Positions 7,685 through 60,598 of a stretch of DNA of 64,000 nt are shown here, piece after piece; position 1 is the first letter of the stretch; each line of letters begins with the position of its first letter. A program made the translations under genes and the position numbers. The stretch comes from Donghicola eburneus (lineage in GTDB: Bacteria; Pseudomonadota; Alphaproteobacteria; Rhodobacterales; Rhodobacteraceae): contig NZ_FOXY01000005.1 in assembly GCF_900115865.1 (NCBI RefSeq), positions 310,001 to 374,000 on the forward strand. Reading direction: 5' to 3'. A model generated the notes under the pieces. It ran no database searches. It was given only the letters and a program-made list of their open reading frames with translations, and was not told where the DNA came from.

Positions 7685-8404
7685 ATGCGTATTTTGCTGA
7701 TTGAGGATGATCCGGCGACAACCAAGAGCATCGAGTTGATGCTGGGTCATGCTAACCTGAATGTGTATTCGACTGCCTTTGGTGAAGAAGGGATCGAGCT
7801 GGCTAAGCTTTATGACTACGATTTGATCCTCTTGGATCTGTCGTTACCGGACATGAGCGGTCACGAAGTGTTGCGCCAGGTCCGTTTGGCGCGGGTTGAA
7901 ACGCCCGCGCTGATCCTGTCGGGAGCAGATGACACCGAGAGCAAGCTCAAGGGGTTCGGGTTTGGCGCTGACGATTACCTGACCAAGCCGTTCCACCGAG
8001 ACGAATTGGTCGCCCGCATCCACGCGATCATTCGCCGGTCCAAGGGGCATTCTCAGTCTATGATCCGCACAGGCCGCATTTGTGTGAACCTTGATGCCAA
8101 GACAGTGGATATCGAGGGTGATCCTGTACACCTGACCGGCAAGGAATATCAGATGCTGGAACTCCTGAGCCTGCGCAAAGGGACCACGCTGACCAAAGAG
8201 ATGTTTCTGAACCATCTTTACGGTGGGATGGATGAACCGGAACTCAAGATCATCGACGTTTTCATCTGCAAGCTTCGGAAAAAGCTGGCAAAAGCAACTG
8301 GCGGTGAAACTCATATCGAAACCGTTTGGGGGCGCGGCTACGTGATGCGCGATCCTTCGGATGCGGCAGGCGCGACCAACAAACAGATCGCTGTCGGCGG
8401 CTGA
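7685..8404 (+). CDS. ctrA: Cell-cycle response regulator CtrA
   Basis: OmpR-type response regulator of 239 residues. The receiver domain (1-120) has the acidic pair ED at 7-8, phosphoacceptor Asp51 in LLDLSLP, and K in LTKPF. The winged-helix output domain (about 125-230) contains [12 protein letters not shown] and [10 protein letters not shown]. In alphaproteobacteria CtrA is phosphorylated through CckA-ChpT; in roseobacters it governs motility, gene transfer agent and quorum-linked genes. The C-terminus here ends in IAVGG, not the di-alanine that marks Caulobacter CtrA for ClpXP. ATG 7685 has only a weak GGGAA upstream. Confidence 0.97.
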
Positions 8405-8457
8405 GGCGACTGGACGACCGGCACGCACCGTCCTAAACCATCAGGCACACGGAATAG

Positions 8458-10599
<2,142 letters not shown>

Positions 10600-10602
10600 T
10601 CC

Positions 10603-12690
10603 ATGAGCCGTCCCGAAATTCTGTTCCCGCTGTTTGGGGGGCTGGAAACCCTGAACGGGATCGGCCCCAAGACCGCCGAAGCGATGGAAAACCTGCGGAT
10701 CACCCGTCCGCGGGATCTGCTGTTTCACTTGCCCTATAGCGGGATCAGCCGTGCGCGGCGCGAGACGGTCCAAGGGGCGACAACGGGCGAAGTTGTCACC
10801 GTTGCGGCGCGCGTCTTGCGCCATACCCCGCCAACGGGCCGTGGCCGCCCGTACCGTGTGATGGTCGAGGATGCGCAGGTCAGTTTTCCCTTGGTGTTTT
10901 TCCACGCGCGGGACCGCTACTTGCAGCAAATTCTGCCAGAGGGCGAAGAGCGGATCATCTCGGGCAAGGTTGAATTTTTCGACGGCATCCCCCAGATCGC
11001 GCACCCCGATCATGTGGTTCCGATGGACGAAGAGGCGTCAATCCCGCCCTTTGAACCGACCTATGCGCTGACCTCTGGCGTGACGGCCAAGCAGGTGATT
11101 AAGGGCGTGGCCAGCGCGCTGGACATGGCGCCGGATCTGCCCGAGTGGATTGACTCGTCCTTGATGAAGCAAAAAGGCTGGCCCACATGGCGCGAGGCTT
11201 TGACCGCCGCCCATACCCCCGAAAACGGGGGGGATTTGGCAGCCGAGGCGCCAGCGCGGACGCGTCTGGCCTATGACGAATTCTTTGCGCATCAACTGAC
11301 TTTGGGGCTTGCCCGCGCGTCGCGCCGCGAAAAGCCCGGCTTGCCATCGGTTGCCACCGGCCGGCTGCAACGGCGGGTGCTGGCGGAGCTGCCGTATCGC
11401 CCGACGGGCGCCCAAGAGCGTGCCATTCGCGAAATCAGCGATGATCTGGCACGGCCCGTGCGCATGAACCGGCTCTTGCAGGGCGACGTGGGCGCAGGCA
11501 AAACTCTGGTCGCGCTGATGTCACTGCTGGTCGCGGTCGAGGCAGGCGGGCAGGGCGTGATGATGGCCCCGACCGAGATCCTCGCGCGTCAGCACATGGA
11601 GGGACTGCAGCCCTTGGCCGAAAGCGCAGGCGTGGTGATCGAGCTCCTCACGGGGCGCGACAAGGGCAAAGAGCGCAAGGCCAAGCTGGAGGCGCTGGCC
11701 AAGGGGAATATCCACATTTTGGTCGGCACTCATGCAGTCTTTCAAAAGGATGTCGAATTCCACGACCTGCGCCTTGCGGTGATCGACGAACAGCATCGAT
11801 TTGGCGTCGCGCAGCGGCTGGAGCTGGGGCGCAAGGGGCGCGCGGTCGATGTACTGGTAATGACCGCGACACCGATCCCGCGCAGCCTTGCGCTGACCCA
11901 ATTCGGGGATATGGATGTCTCGATCCTCGACGAAAAGCCGCCTGGACGCACACCGGTGAAAACCGCGCTCATCTCGAACGAGCGCATGGACGAAGTGACC
12001 GAGCATCTGCGCCACGCGATCTCGCAGGGGCGTCAGGCCTACTGGGTTTGCCCGCTTGTCGAAGAGAGCGAGGTCTCTGACCTGACCTCTGCCCAAGAGC
12101 GGTTCGAACGCCTACGTGCAGCACTCGGAGAAGGCGTGGTCGATCTGGTCCACGGCCAGATGCCCCCCGATCACAAAGACACGGCCATGGCGCGGTTCCA
12201 GTCGGGCGAGACCAAGGTGCTGGTCGCGACCACGGTGATCGAGGTTGGGGTGAACGTGCCCAATGCCTCGATCATGGTTATCGAACGGGCCGAGATTTTC
12301 GGCCTTGCGCAGCTTCACCAGTTGCGTGGACGGGTGGGGCGCGGCGCGGCGGCTTCGACGTGCCTGCTCATGTACCAACCCCCGCTGTCCGAGACCGGCC
12401 AGCGCCGCCTGACCACGTTGCGCGATACCGAGGACGGTTTTCGCATCAGTGAGGTGGATCTGCAAATGCGCGGGGCAGGTGACCTGATCGGGACCGCGCA
12501 ATCGGGCCTGCCACGATTTCGGATCGCCGATATGGAGCGACAAGCGGACTTGATGGCGACGGCCCAAACCGATGCGCGCGCGCTGCTGACGACGGACCCG
12601 CACCTGACATCTGAGCGTGGCAAGGCCGCCAGAACGCTGCTTTGGCTGATGGAGCAAGATCAGGCGATCCGTTTGATTTCAGTGGGTTAA
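10603..12690 (+). CDS. recG: ATP-dependent DNA helicase RecG
   Basis: Superfamily 2 branch-migration helicase that remodels stalled forks and Holliday junctions. 695 residues, typical. The N-terminal wedge/OB domain starts GIGPKTAEAMENL; the motor has motif I GDVGAGKTLVA, motif II in the DExH form DEQH (VIDEQHRFGV), motif III TATPIPRSLALT, motif VI QLRGRVGRG and the RecG C-terminal TLRDTEDGFRISEVDLQMRGAGD. ATG 10603 directly follows ligA. A LexA-type box and a 40-codon membrane-protein gene lie just downstream, suggesting a small DNA-repair neighbourhood. Confidence 0.98.
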   Translation: MSRPEILFPLFGGLETLNGIGPKTAEAMENLRITRPRDLLFHLPYSGISRARRETVQGATTGEVVTVAARVLRHTPPTGRGRPYRVMVEDAQVSFPLVFFHARDRYLQQILPEGEERIISGKVEFFDGIPQIAHPDHVVPMDEEASIPPFEPTYALTSGVTAKQVIKGVASALDMAPDLPEWIDSSLMKQKGWPTWREALTAAHTPENGGDLAAEAPARTRLAYDEFFAHQLTLGLARASRREKPGLPSVATGRLQRRVLAELPYRPTGAQERAIREISDDLARPVRMNRLLQGDVGAGKTLVALMSLLVAVEAGGQGVMMAPTEILARQHMEGLQPLAESAGVVIELLTGRDKGKERKAKLEALAKGNIHILVGTHAVFQKDVEFHDLRLAVIDEQHRFGVAQRLELGRKGRAVDVLVMTATPIPRSLALTQFGDMDVSILDEKPPGRTPVKTALISNERMDEVTEHLRHAISQGRQAYWVCPLVEESEVSDLTSAQERFERLRAALGEGVVDLVHGQMPPDHKDTAMARFQSGETKVLVATTVIEVGVNVPNASIMVIERAEIFGLAQLHQLRGRVGRGAAASTCLLMYQPPLSETGQRRLTTLRDTEDGFRISEVDLQMRGAGDLIGTAQSGLPRFRIADMERQADLMATAQTDARALLTTDPHLTSERGKAARTLLWLMEQDQAIRLISVG

Positions 12691-12728
12691 GCGCTTCTCT
12701 CGCGCGGTGTTCTAAAATGTTCACGTTT

Positions 12729-12743
12729 GTTCTCAAAAAGTTC
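12729..12743 (+). promoter_or_regulatory. Candidate LexA (SOS) box GTTC-N7-GTTC
   Basis: GTTC at 12729-12732 and GTTC at 12740-12743 are separated by exactly seven bases (TCAAAAA), the direct-repeat LexA site of alphaproteobacteria. Two further GTTC copies stand at 12709 and 12719 at 10-base steps, so four copies lie on one helical face. The box begins 82 bases before the start of the 40-codon gene at 12811. No -35/-10 pair is certain. Confidence 0.6.
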
Positions 12744-12810
12744 TTTACCGAATCGTTAAGCTATGAGAACAAAGAGGCAACAGGAACATTGAGCGAACGG
12801 AGCGTGCAAA

Positions 12811-12933
12811 ATGGCCCGCCAGATCAAACTGACCCTCGCGCGTAACGCAGACACTTTCATTCCCGATATGATCGGTGCGGCCTCGTTGATGGTCATGCTG
12901 GTCGGCGCGCTTCACTTGCCGATGTTCTTCTGA
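12811..12933 (+). CDS. Small membrane protein, 40 residues, possibly SOS-controlled
   Basis: A 40-residue protein that would be missed by length filters. Reasons to believe it: GGAG (12799-12802) stands 8 bases before ATG 12811, a strong terminator follows, and the product has a plausible design. The polar, positively charged N-terminus (MARQIKLTLARNADTF) is followed by one hydrophobic helix of about 20 residues (IGAASLMVMLVGALHLPMFF). It therefore looks like a single-pass inner-membrane peptide with the N-terminus in the cytoplasm. The GTTC-N7-GTTC box upstream suggests LexA control. Known precedents are SOS-induced membrane micro-proteins that block division, such as Caulobacter SidA; no sequence similarity to SidA is claimed. 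Function otherwise unknown. Confidence 0.65.
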   Translation: MARQIKLTLARNADTFIPDMIGAASLMVMLVGALHLPMFF

Positions 12934-13057
12934 CTGCCCATCCCGCGGTTCTCTGCCGACCGGACTTGCCGCCATGTCCCACTTTGCGGCCTGACTGCCC
13001 GTCTTGTTCTGCCAGCGCCTACTGGTTGAACCTTAGTCCGGTACGAACCGTCTTCTA

Positions 13058-13093
13058 CGCCGCCATCCTTGCCGGGATGTGCGGCGGTTTTTT
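13058..13093 (+). terminator. Strong rho-independent terminator after the 40-codon gene
   Basis: CGCCGC (13058-13063) pairs with GCGGCG (13081-13086). The stem extends inward through ATCC/GGAT with one bulge and is followed by six T (13088-13093). Confidence 0.85.
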
Positions 13094-13119
13094 ATGCGCA
13101 CAAGGCCCAAGGCGCTCAT

Positions 13120-13192
13120 GCTTTCACCTTTGTGAAAATACTCTCGGGGGTGAATTGGTGCCAAAGCACCAAGAGGGGGCAGACAGCCCCCT
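13120..13192 (-). repeat. Mosaic hairpin repeat, copy A
   Basis: Read on the minus strand from the iscU-like stop codon it consists of three parts. First a GGGGGC/GCCCCC hairpin (13175-13191), then a TTGGTG/CACCAA hairpin (13155-13172), then a 35-base core (13120-13154) that begins TTCACC, contains GAGTATTTT and ends GGTGAAAGC. A second copy with the same order lies at 14118-14188 in the opposite orientation. The middle hairpin differs in sequence but keeps its pairing, so structure seems to be what is kept. Probably a REP-like or transcript-end element. Confidence 0.7.
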
Positions 13193-13218
13193 TTGCGCGT
13201 TCACCAATAATCAAAAAC

Positions 13219-13671
13219 TTATACGGTCTGCGCCGCTTCGGCCTCGGCCACCGCTTCGCTCAACGCGTCCAAGGTCAGCATGATCGACGCATGACGATTC
13301 TTGTACTCTCGCGCGGGCAGCAAAGCTTCTAGCCCTTCGAACGGAGCGGACGGTGCCTCTGCGCCATCGCGCAGCATCGCCTTCAACTCGTCACGGGCTT
13401 TGTTGATCTCTGCACTCGTGCGTCCAATCGCGGCGGACCCGACCACACTGGCCGACGCTTGCCCCAAGGCGCAGGCTTTGACGTCTGCGGCGTAGCGGCT
13501 GACTTTCCCGTCCTCGACATCCACATCCACGGTGACGGTGGATCCGCAAAGGGGCGAGCGCTTCTTGACGCTGGCCTGAGGCGCGTCGAGCCGGCCTGTA
13601 TGGGGAATCTCGGCAGCCAGCGCGAGAATACGCTGGGAATAGAGCTTCATCAGGTCGTTCTCGTTCGACAT
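13219..13671 (-). CDS. IscU/SufU-like iron-sulfur scaffold protein
   Basis: A 150-residue NifU N-terminal-domain protein, a fold on which Fe-S clusters are assembled. Two ligand cysteines are recognisable, SPLCGS and KACALGQA, with the following SASVVGSAAIGRT matching the family helix. The third ligand position, normally Cys in R(I/V)xCAxL, appears to read His in KNRHASIML. ATG 13671 has GGAGG 4 bases upstream; the open frame runs on to 13884 but the extra part is unlike the family. It is divergent from hisI with 77 bases between. Its role in general Fe-S assembly is uncertain because of the missing Cys and the lack of isc or suf neighbours. Confidence 0.85.
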   Translation of the reverse strand: MSNENDLMKLYSQRILALAAEIPHTGRLDAPQASVKKRSPLCGSTVTVDVDVEDGKVSRYAADVKACALGQASASVVGSAAIGRTSAEINKARDELKAMLRDGAEAPSAPFEGLEALLPAREYKNRHASIMLTLDALSEAVAEAEAAQTV

Positions 13672-60306: not shown

Positions 60307-60598
60307 TATGCCTGTCCCATTCGTCTTGTTCCGCAGTTTCGCGGATTTTTGATCCATCCCCAGATGTGCGCACTTTATGACATATCTGCCGAAACACACC
60401 AAGGCTCGAATCCAATTGGTTCCATACTGATATCACCAATTGGCATTTTTCCGCTCAACACCCCCCGATTGTGACCCAAAGTATACAAAGCTTGGTTAAT
60501 TCCATTCCCCAGTATTGATTGGTTCTTTTGTGAATGGACAAAGCCTGTCAGGACACGATGATTGATGTGAACATTTTCAGAACTGCAAAGGACGTGCC
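60307..60598. promoter_or_regulatory. Divergent cell-wall gene promoter with twin CCAATTGG palindromes
   Basis: 292 bases between the YcbK-like gene and the L,D-transpeptidase gene. The 8-base palindrome CCAATTGG occurs twice, at 60412-60419 and 60436-60443, 24 bases apart, in AT-rich DNA about 110-160 bases from each start. It could be a shared operator. No promoter is fixed. Confidence 0.4.

Follow-up and report, generated by a model that had tools for sequence, protein, structure and literature searches.

Rhodobacteraceae are abundant marine and phototrophic bacteria. In Escherichia coli, the SOS-controlled membrane peptide TisB is accompanied by an antisense RNA, IstR-1. SgrS/SgrT is a dual-function mRNA/sRNA that holds a small open reading frame (ORF) and an RNA part in one transcript. 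SidA of Caulobacter crescentus is a 29-amino-acid, SOS-induced protein of the inner membrane that acts on FtsW and inhibits division (PMC4211646). DinQ of E. coli has 27 amino acids, is under LexA control, has an antisense RNA (AgrB) and depolarises the membrane (PMC3567139). On the RNA side, SorX and CcsR1-4 of Rhodobacter sphaeroides are sRNAs derived from 3'UTRs, and RsaA of Staphylococcus aureus is described as an RNA whose C-rich sequence pairs with a Shine-Dalgarno sequence (PMC3961350).

Within the accessible parts of the open-access literature, we found no SOS division inhibitor named for Rhodobacteraceae and no mention of the micro-gene described here, which supplementary tables or subscription papers may hold; nor did the portions searched describe the combination of an SOS micro-protein with a UTR RNA under LexA. 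In their main texts, the LexA study on D. shibae mentions neither recG nor sidA, the sRNA paper on R. pomeroyi neither recG nor SOS, and the paper on UTR-derived sRNAs of R. sphaeroides none of recG, LexA and SOS. We conclude that what began as a SidA-like idea built on an eight-base match is a genuine locus, shared across the family, whose operator is of the SOS type and whose second output had not been anticipated. It is a strong candidate SOS division inhibitor of Rhodobacteraceae; it would also give the family an SOS gene with a conserved structured RNA on its mRNA, through which DNA damage could induce protein and RNA together. The micro-gene adjoins the region of the master cell-cycle regulator ctrA (ctrA, ligA, recG), and the locus is open to direct testing in ordinary strains of Rhodobacteraceae.

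The micro-gene behind recG and its compound operator

The window, the whole 64,000-nucleotide stretch of Donghicola eburneus DNA analysed here, carries in order ctrA (NF045991, 409 bits), ligA, recG and the micro-gene, followed by a NifU-like gene on the opposite strand. recG (10603-12690, + strand; NCBIfam NF008164 RecG, 1104 bits, plus Pfam) lies immediately 5' of the micro-gene. An earlier, sequence-only reading had described a GTTC-N7-GTTC box, extra GTTC copies, a ribosome site and a 40-amino-acid frame behind recG, and each of these is where it had placed them. The LexA-type box 1 (GTTCTCAAAAAGTTC, 12729-12743, + strand) stands 82 bases 5' of the ATG. Two additional GTTC half-sites at 12709 and 12719 (12709-12722, + strand) are in phase with it; the four copies, which that reading had put on one helical face, follow each other in steps of 10, 10 and 11. 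In promoter column counts, conservation is ~96% for the GTTC at 12719 but falls to 61-77% per base for that at 12709. By the same counts, a -35-like hexamer, TTTACC (12744-12749, + strand), overlaps the operator, and its consensus is TTTACA with the first five columns at ≥95%. A second, reverse LexA-like element, GAAC-N7-CAAC (12767-12781, - strand), follows 23 nt after box 1, and its GAACAAA and CAAC columns are almost invariant. A third box in the 5'UTR, GAAC-N7-GAAC (12784-12798, - strand), which the first reading missed, is limited, at that position, to three of the four loci from the same genus (the window's own, L002 and L004, not L003). The Shine-Dalgarno sequence GGAG (12799-12802, + strand) sits 8 nt ahead of the ATG at 12811, which opens the frame of the predicted 40-amino-acid single-helix membrane micro-protein MARQIKLTLARNADTFIPDMIGAASLMVMLVGALHLPMFF (12811-12933, + strand; the stop codon ends at 12933). 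Beyond it lie the structured 3'UTR RNA (12934-13051, + strand), which its own fold, family covariation and a weak model match support, and a Rho-independent terminator (13058-13093, + strand) with its stem at 13058-13086, then TTTTTT. A scan of the locus with the sigma-70 consensus recognised no promoter.

This neighbourhood is widely kept. Among the 18 family genomes for which both places were listed, ctrA and the micro-gene are linked on one contig and on the same strand in 17, with start distances of 5.1-5.9 kb (window span 7685-12933); in the exception, G022, the two lie on separate contigs. The micro-gene stands behind recG in 102/107 unique loci, a count of those in which a word pattern recognised the RecG end.

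The sequence-only reading had estimated that an eight-base match of this kind would turn up about twice by chance in the window, and this is approximately right: the window holds six GTTC-N7-GTTC against 2.5 expected. Genome-wide, the bare motif is not enriched either (148 copies vs 168 for a reversed control pattern). The motif alone therefore carries no meaning, and it is conservation that gives it significance. Conservation of both frame and half-sites in relatives had been set beforehand as the test, and both are conserved: the frame is found in 255/295 genomes, and the exact GTTC-N7-GTTC lies ≤250 bases 5' of the start in 107/110 loci, the nearest copy being 69-120 bases upstream. Outside the promoter, boxes of either orientation occur in these loci at a rate of 0.0026 per 180 nt. 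Conservation in relatives thus rules out a chance match. The three exceptions among the 110 (L030, L104 and L107) have GTTC at a 6-base spacing and none at a 7-base spacing. Since the 110 operator loci repeat some genomes (e.g. L011/L079 and L026/L096), we also counted 107 unique loci; in these, a scan of spacers from 3 to 13 across the promoter window found a spacer of 7 in 104/107 and of 6 in 99/107, the others reaching 0-4.

The operator is larger than first noted and comprises three forward half-sites plus the opposed GAAC-N7-CAAC, all at fixed spacing. Across 101 promoters the consensus reads GTTC-nCAAAT-GTTC-TCAAAAA-GTTC-TTTACA, ~10 variable bases, then AAAATGAGAACAAA-n4-CAACA. Box 1 and the opposed element occur together in 104/107 unique loci when one base of the second half-site is left free, whereas a control window 610-700 bases upstream never contains both; the 23-nt spacing from box 1 to GAACA is identical in 101/104 distinct promoters that carry the two. 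A set of 20 divergent held-out loci, mostly drawn from lower-scoring search rows, retains the box in every case, 19 times in forward orientation and once (L207) solely as reverse GAAC-N7-GAAC.

GTTC-N7-GTTC is the published LexA motif of Caulobacter (PMC12700426). The genome's own uvrA box (GTTCTTAAAAAGTTC, L062) equals box 1 in 14/15 letters, its lexA has GAAC-N7-GAAC ~50 bases ahead of the start, and its recA has GAACAAGACGGGAAC ~64 bases ahead of a likely start. Further AT-rich boxes lie near uvrD-like and mmcB-like genes, and box orientation varies between genes. Both marks of an alphaproteobacterial LexA regulon, a conserved promoter box and the same box at known SOS genes, are thus found, and the earlier identification of the box as LexA-type is borne out by the held-out loci together with uvrA, lexA and recA of the same genome. 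LexA control of the micro-gene through the compound operator is what we infer most firmly from these sequences, and there is a strong case that LexA binds it and that damage induces the gene.

Other boxes came to our attention alongside. An AT-rich GTTCTGAAAATGTTC lies at 60569-60583 (- strand) of the window (L074), between two apparently divergent frames. GTTCTTTTTATGTTC sits close to the start of a frame in L061, a candidate further SOS gene of this genome that we take to be radA/sms from its appearance, and GTTCCTATTTTGTTC lies ahead of a divergent frame in L067, presumably imuA. GTTC-N7-GTTC also occurs far 5' of mraZ in L263 and L264 (GTTCCATTTTTGTTC and GTTCCTTTTGTGTTC), where it may be chance.

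Distribution and predicted structure of the micro-protein

A profile of 29 sequences (A1) served for the family and class searches. At E ≤0.01, it matches the 255 family genomes given above; restricted to good-quality genomes, the count is 227/260. Six matches in the total of 255 are borderline (E 0.0004-0.007), and 40/295 genomes have no match. Nearly all family genomes show a single match, and four show two. An initial search with one sequence had matched 47/101 genomes, two of them outside the family at E >0.6 and not credible. Against 289 class-wide genomes, the profile gave no credible match outside the family: 14 genomes matched at E ≤0.1, of which only 4, all family members, are credible. 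The 10 out-of-family matches (E 0.013-0.099) cover 17-22 positions inside frames of 237-1329 amino acids, and we rejected a wider distribution in the class. The family was recognised as Rhodobacteraceae from the named loci (best 80 of 131), among which are Ruegeria, Leisingera, Phaeobacter, Tritonibacter, Sulfitobacter, Rhodovulum and others. The micro-gene is present in most sampled genera of Rhodobacteraceae; one locus, L158, comes from a strain of Ruegeria pomeroyi.

The frame bears clear marks of coding. Over the 107 unique loci, pN/pS is 0.18 in frame (152 pairs), whereas the other frames give 1.58 and 7.59, and a Shine-Dalgarno sequence precedes the start in 104/107 against 12.5% at random positions. 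The pN/pS value and the Shine-Dalgarno frequency rule out a non-coding frame, and by this measure the frame is under purifying selection. All chosen starts are ATG, the script having picked the nearest in-frame ATG, and the length is near-constant, with exactly 40 codons in 80/107 unique loci. Seven residues (M1, D19, G22, L26, L30, L34 and P37) are invariant among the 29 profile sequences.

AlphaFold predicts one helix spanning residues 2-39 (mean pLDDT 80, pTM 0.41). The most hydrophobic 19 residues (16-34) reach a hydropathy of 1.89, the N-terminus is net positive in 92/109 loci, and almost nothing follows the helix. The sequence-only description of a single-helix 40-residue protein behind a ribosome site therefore agrees with both the coding signal and the prediction of one hydrophobic helix. 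Membrane insertion of the peptide is strongly indicated, and its N-terminus is probably inside; one predicted helix, a positive N-terminus and little beyond the helix would fit an inner-membrane regulator. No known protein family fits: the best hits are at E 0.13 in Pfam and E 0.071 in NCBIfam, each from one of the 29 members searched, and 31 members gave no match in PADLOC and a best E of 0.2 in PHROGs.

Structured RNA between the stop codon and the terminator

The sequence-only interpretation holds as far as the micro-gene and its LexA-type box are concerned; it was incomplete in that it missed a structured RNA extending from the stop codon to the terminator. A terminator T-run at a hairpin arm lies 94-263 nt past the stop codon in 101/105 loci with enough sequence, and the stretch from stop to terminator has a mean of 145 nt over these 101 loci. 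Two words recur in the 101 UTRs far above expectation, CTGCCTG (112 occurrences vs 3.5 expected, in 77 loci) and CTGTCCC (82 vs 3.6, in 64 loci), and each UTR holds on average 2.6 UCCC and 3.0 GCCU words. Loop motifs found in many species of the family are CUGUCCC, CUGCCUGUCC and UGCCUC-like. Inspected by eye, single-sequence folds of 15 loci mostly show a long closing stem, about three hairpins and then the terminator, with many of the motifs in hairpin loops.

When 80 UTRs aligned by MAFFT were given to RNAalifold, the terminator alone emerged, and we therefore used strand-swap tests, which need no alignment, and a covariance model. Closing-stem strands taken from one species pair at a mean of -26.4 kcal/mol; exchanged between species, they reach -18.8, and the best among 2000 permutations is -20.4. 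The own pairing is within the best 5% for just 35/77 loci. For shorter strands, the two means are -16.75 and -11.41 (0/2000). One interior control was null (1999/2000) and a second was borderline (-7.75 vs -7.41, 101/2000). Hairpins P2 (72 loci), P3 (38) and P4 (44) each scored 0/2000, compared with 688/2000 and 852/2000 for shifted hairpin anchors, the latter from 9 loci only. The covariance model, built on 8 UTRs and applied to the window together with 91 loci from the set of 110, yielded 71 matches at E ≤1, of which 70 lie in the 3'UTR and one (L022) elsewhere; 21 sources had no match, among them the window, L001, L003 and L004. In the fitted alignment of these 71 rows (A5), which includes the off-target row L022 and the 8 model-building rows, 90.5% of cells pair, 22/22 pairs have two-sided changes, covariation scores 0.475, whereas slid structures reach 0.05-0.106, and 0/500 shuffles reach any of five measures; these counts lean towards structure because the alignment was fitted to the model. 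Paired positions contain 98 G-U cells and 17 A-C cells, which makes the sense strand the likely folded one. Motif bases are unpaired with a probability of 0.75, compared with 0.40 elsewhere, a figure without a composition-matched control.

Among the held-out loci, the best match falls in the 3'UTR for 7/20 (E ≤0.0088), and weaker matches are mixed. In 27 loci, the mean fold z-score is only -2.1, and several loci lie close to 0. We saw no second genomic copy of the RNA in 61 genomes, under filters so strict that the locus itself was found in only 4. Rfam 15 returned 0 matches at gathering score for six relatives, and at E ≤5 the window region 12500-13300 gave just a sub-threshold Twister-sister (18.3 vs 34 bits), so that no known RNA family is found at gathering score. 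From covariation and strand pairing across the family, we conclude that a conserved folded RNA lies between the stop codon and the terminator.

The window's copy of this RNA is diverged, with a topology as in the family. Its closing stem pairs 12945-12951 with 13045-13051 and 12959-12966 with 13035-13042, and encloses hairpins at 12968-12990 (loop with TGTCCC), 12993-13003 (loop TGCCC) and 13006-13031 (loop CGCCTA). UTR and terminator together fold at -62.8 kcal/mol (z -3.86), the minimum-energy structure being equal to the centroid; without the terminator, the UTR (L001) has a z of -2.6. The covariance model, which misses the window's own genus at the normal threshold, matches weakly with filters off (8.8 bits, E 0.013 in 251 bases).

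What the RNA might act on is suggested by its loops. We rejected an action on the gene's own ribosome-binding site, for which no co-variation was seen (own -30.74, permuted -30.74, 489/1000), and examined the leaders of ftsZ, mraZ and ctrA as candidate targets. GGGACAG occurs in 7/19 mraZ leaders against 1.8 expected, two of the 19 (L252 and L275) being cut by contig ends and misread in position, and in 0/22 leaders for ftsZ and for ctrA. A seed test of complementarity to the leaders used 17 of the 19 genomes that have both the gene and a leader, G022 and G024 being left out, and 16 in the case of ctrA. Shuffles reaching the observed value numbered 0/200 for dcw, 0/200 for ftsZ and 1/200 for ctrA with 6-base seeds, 0/200, 3/200 and 6/200 with 7 bases, and 0/200, 0/200 and 19/200 with 8 bases. 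As the ftsZ control leader also beats nearly all shuffles, the test is not specific, and a dcw target is a hypothesis only. In the dcw leader, 5' of mraZ, a terminator hairpin (e.g. in L259, L251 and L261, ~75-111 bases ahead of mraZ) keeps its loop as (A/G)TGGCAG while its stem letters change. This loop is present in 19/19 family genomes with the SOS gene and 0/5 without it, a count that leaves out G020 (leader cut by a contig end), concerns related genomes, and counts as lacking the gene G018, with a borderline match (E 0.0066), and the fragmented assemblies G007 and G011. G021 has the loop visible in its terminator, and in G018 the motif matches elsewhere in the leader, not in the terminator loop. 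Contact between the RNA and this loop may involve just 5-7 bases. The leader upstream of mraZ yields the sRNA UpsM (PMC5089854), and the stress sRNA StsR binds UpsM/the dcw leader and affects division (PMC8307010). The dcw leader is perhaps a target, weakly indicated, and its terminator loop may serve StsR instead.

A proposed SOS transcript and its relation to known systems

Frame, operator, terminator, RNA fold and loop motifs are shown by the comparison of loci. With moderate confidence, we propose that together they specify a LexA-repressed, possibly bifunctional transcript, which joins a SidA-like peptide to an RNA with C-rich loops and serves an SOS division pause. LexA would occupy the compound operator, whose forward half-sites in 10- and 11-base steps lie over the -35 region and face the opposed GAAC-N7-CAAC. 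The micro-gene, with its own promoter and terminator behind ctrA-ligA-recG, would then be released by RecA-driven LexA cleavage to give one short mRNA, estimated at ~300-330 nt. From this mRNA would come the 40-residue peptide, its single membrane helix running to the C-terminus; the peptide would act like SidA and restrain the division machinery in the membrane. A division pause caused by the micro-gene, proposed by analogy with SidA, is a hypothesis of moderate strength. The remaining transcript would form the closed RNA, whose hairpins present CUGUCCC, CUGCCUGUCC and UGCCUC-like loops. C-rich loops of this kind hint at contacts with G-rich leaders, in the manner of RsaA, and leaders of target mRNAs would be the RNA's most likely partners; if so, one SOS transcript would have a protein arm and an RNA arm. 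For base-pairing by the RNA, and for its targets, the indications are weak.

The same features can be read in other ways, which overlap in part and whose confidences do not sum to one. The peptide could be a SidA-like division inhibitor and nothing else; the 3'UTR structure would then stabilise the mRNA or take part in its processing by RNase E and would have no target. SidA in Caulobacter is a precedent (PMC4211646), but conserved loop words far above shuffles count against this reading, as they suggest an intermolecular contact; we hold it to be doubtful, if conceivable. We think it unlikely that the gene encodes a type I toxin akin to TisB and DinQ and induced by the SOS response, in which the peptide would depolarise the membrane, the 3'UTR would only stabilise or control the mRNA, and an antisense RNA would exist. 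By motif and prediction only, ~40 amino acids with a single hydrophobic helix, a LexA box and a structured mRNA match such a toxin, and DinQ, a 27-amino-acid LexA-controlled membrane peptide with an antisense RNA, provides a precedent (PMC3567139). Yet nearly all matched genomes have a single match and the gene mostly lies behind recG, unlike a mobile toxin-antitoxin module, and its conserved D19, G22 and P37 would suggest a protein partner. Moreover, the loop words are conserved, whereas stability alone needs no such words, and the G-U counts place the structure on the sense strand.

The RNA might instead be the functional product, an SOS-induced sRNA or protein-binding sponge, with the ORF secondary as a leader peptide or RNA-stability device. 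A fold kept through many compensatory changes and repeated UCCC/GCCU words that are mostly unpaired would be expected of such an RNA; strong purifying selection on the peptide, its near-constant length and its invariant residues would not, and we consider this distinctly improbable. Least of all do we credit a regulator other than LexA as the reader of the GTTC repeats. The first two conserved half-sites stand 6 bases apart, a distance that differs from the LexA spacing, and the GAACAAA element is conserved beyond what a LexA half-site needs. Against this reading, box 1 matches the uvrA box of the genome in all letters but one, and GTTC-N7-GTTC boxes are also present there at lexA and recA.

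Read as the bifunctional SOS transcript that we favour, the locus resembles both known SOS micro-proteins and known UTR-derived RNAs. It shares with TisB/IstR-1 and DinQ/AgrB the LexA control, the tiny membrane peptide and a regulatory RNA at the locus, here by motif and prediction; unlike in TisB and DinQ, the RNA conserved here probably belongs to the sense strand, within the same transcript. The likeness to SorX and CcsR1-4, which come from the same family of bacteria, is that of a sense RNA located in an mRNA's 3'UTR. SorX and CcsR are controlled by other sigma factors, whereas here a LexA box stands at the promoter, and the multibranched fold with CUGUCCC/CUGCCU loops has no Rfam match. 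The C-rich motifs recall RsaA and are, in the micro-gene RNA, mostly in hairpin loops; bacterium and control are unrelated, the RNA is joined to a coding frame, and its targets are hypothetical. Like SgrS/SgrT, the locus would place a small ORF and an RNA part on a single transcript, under LexA-type control in this case and with the ORF 5' of a large closed RNA fold. With SidA it has in common an alphaproteobacterial host, LexA-type control by GTTC-N7-GTTC and a very short micro-protein with a single predicted helix; unlike SidA, to which we compare it by description, the micro-protein has 40 amino acids and invariant residues of its own, is encoded behind recG, and is followed past its stop codon by a structured RNA.
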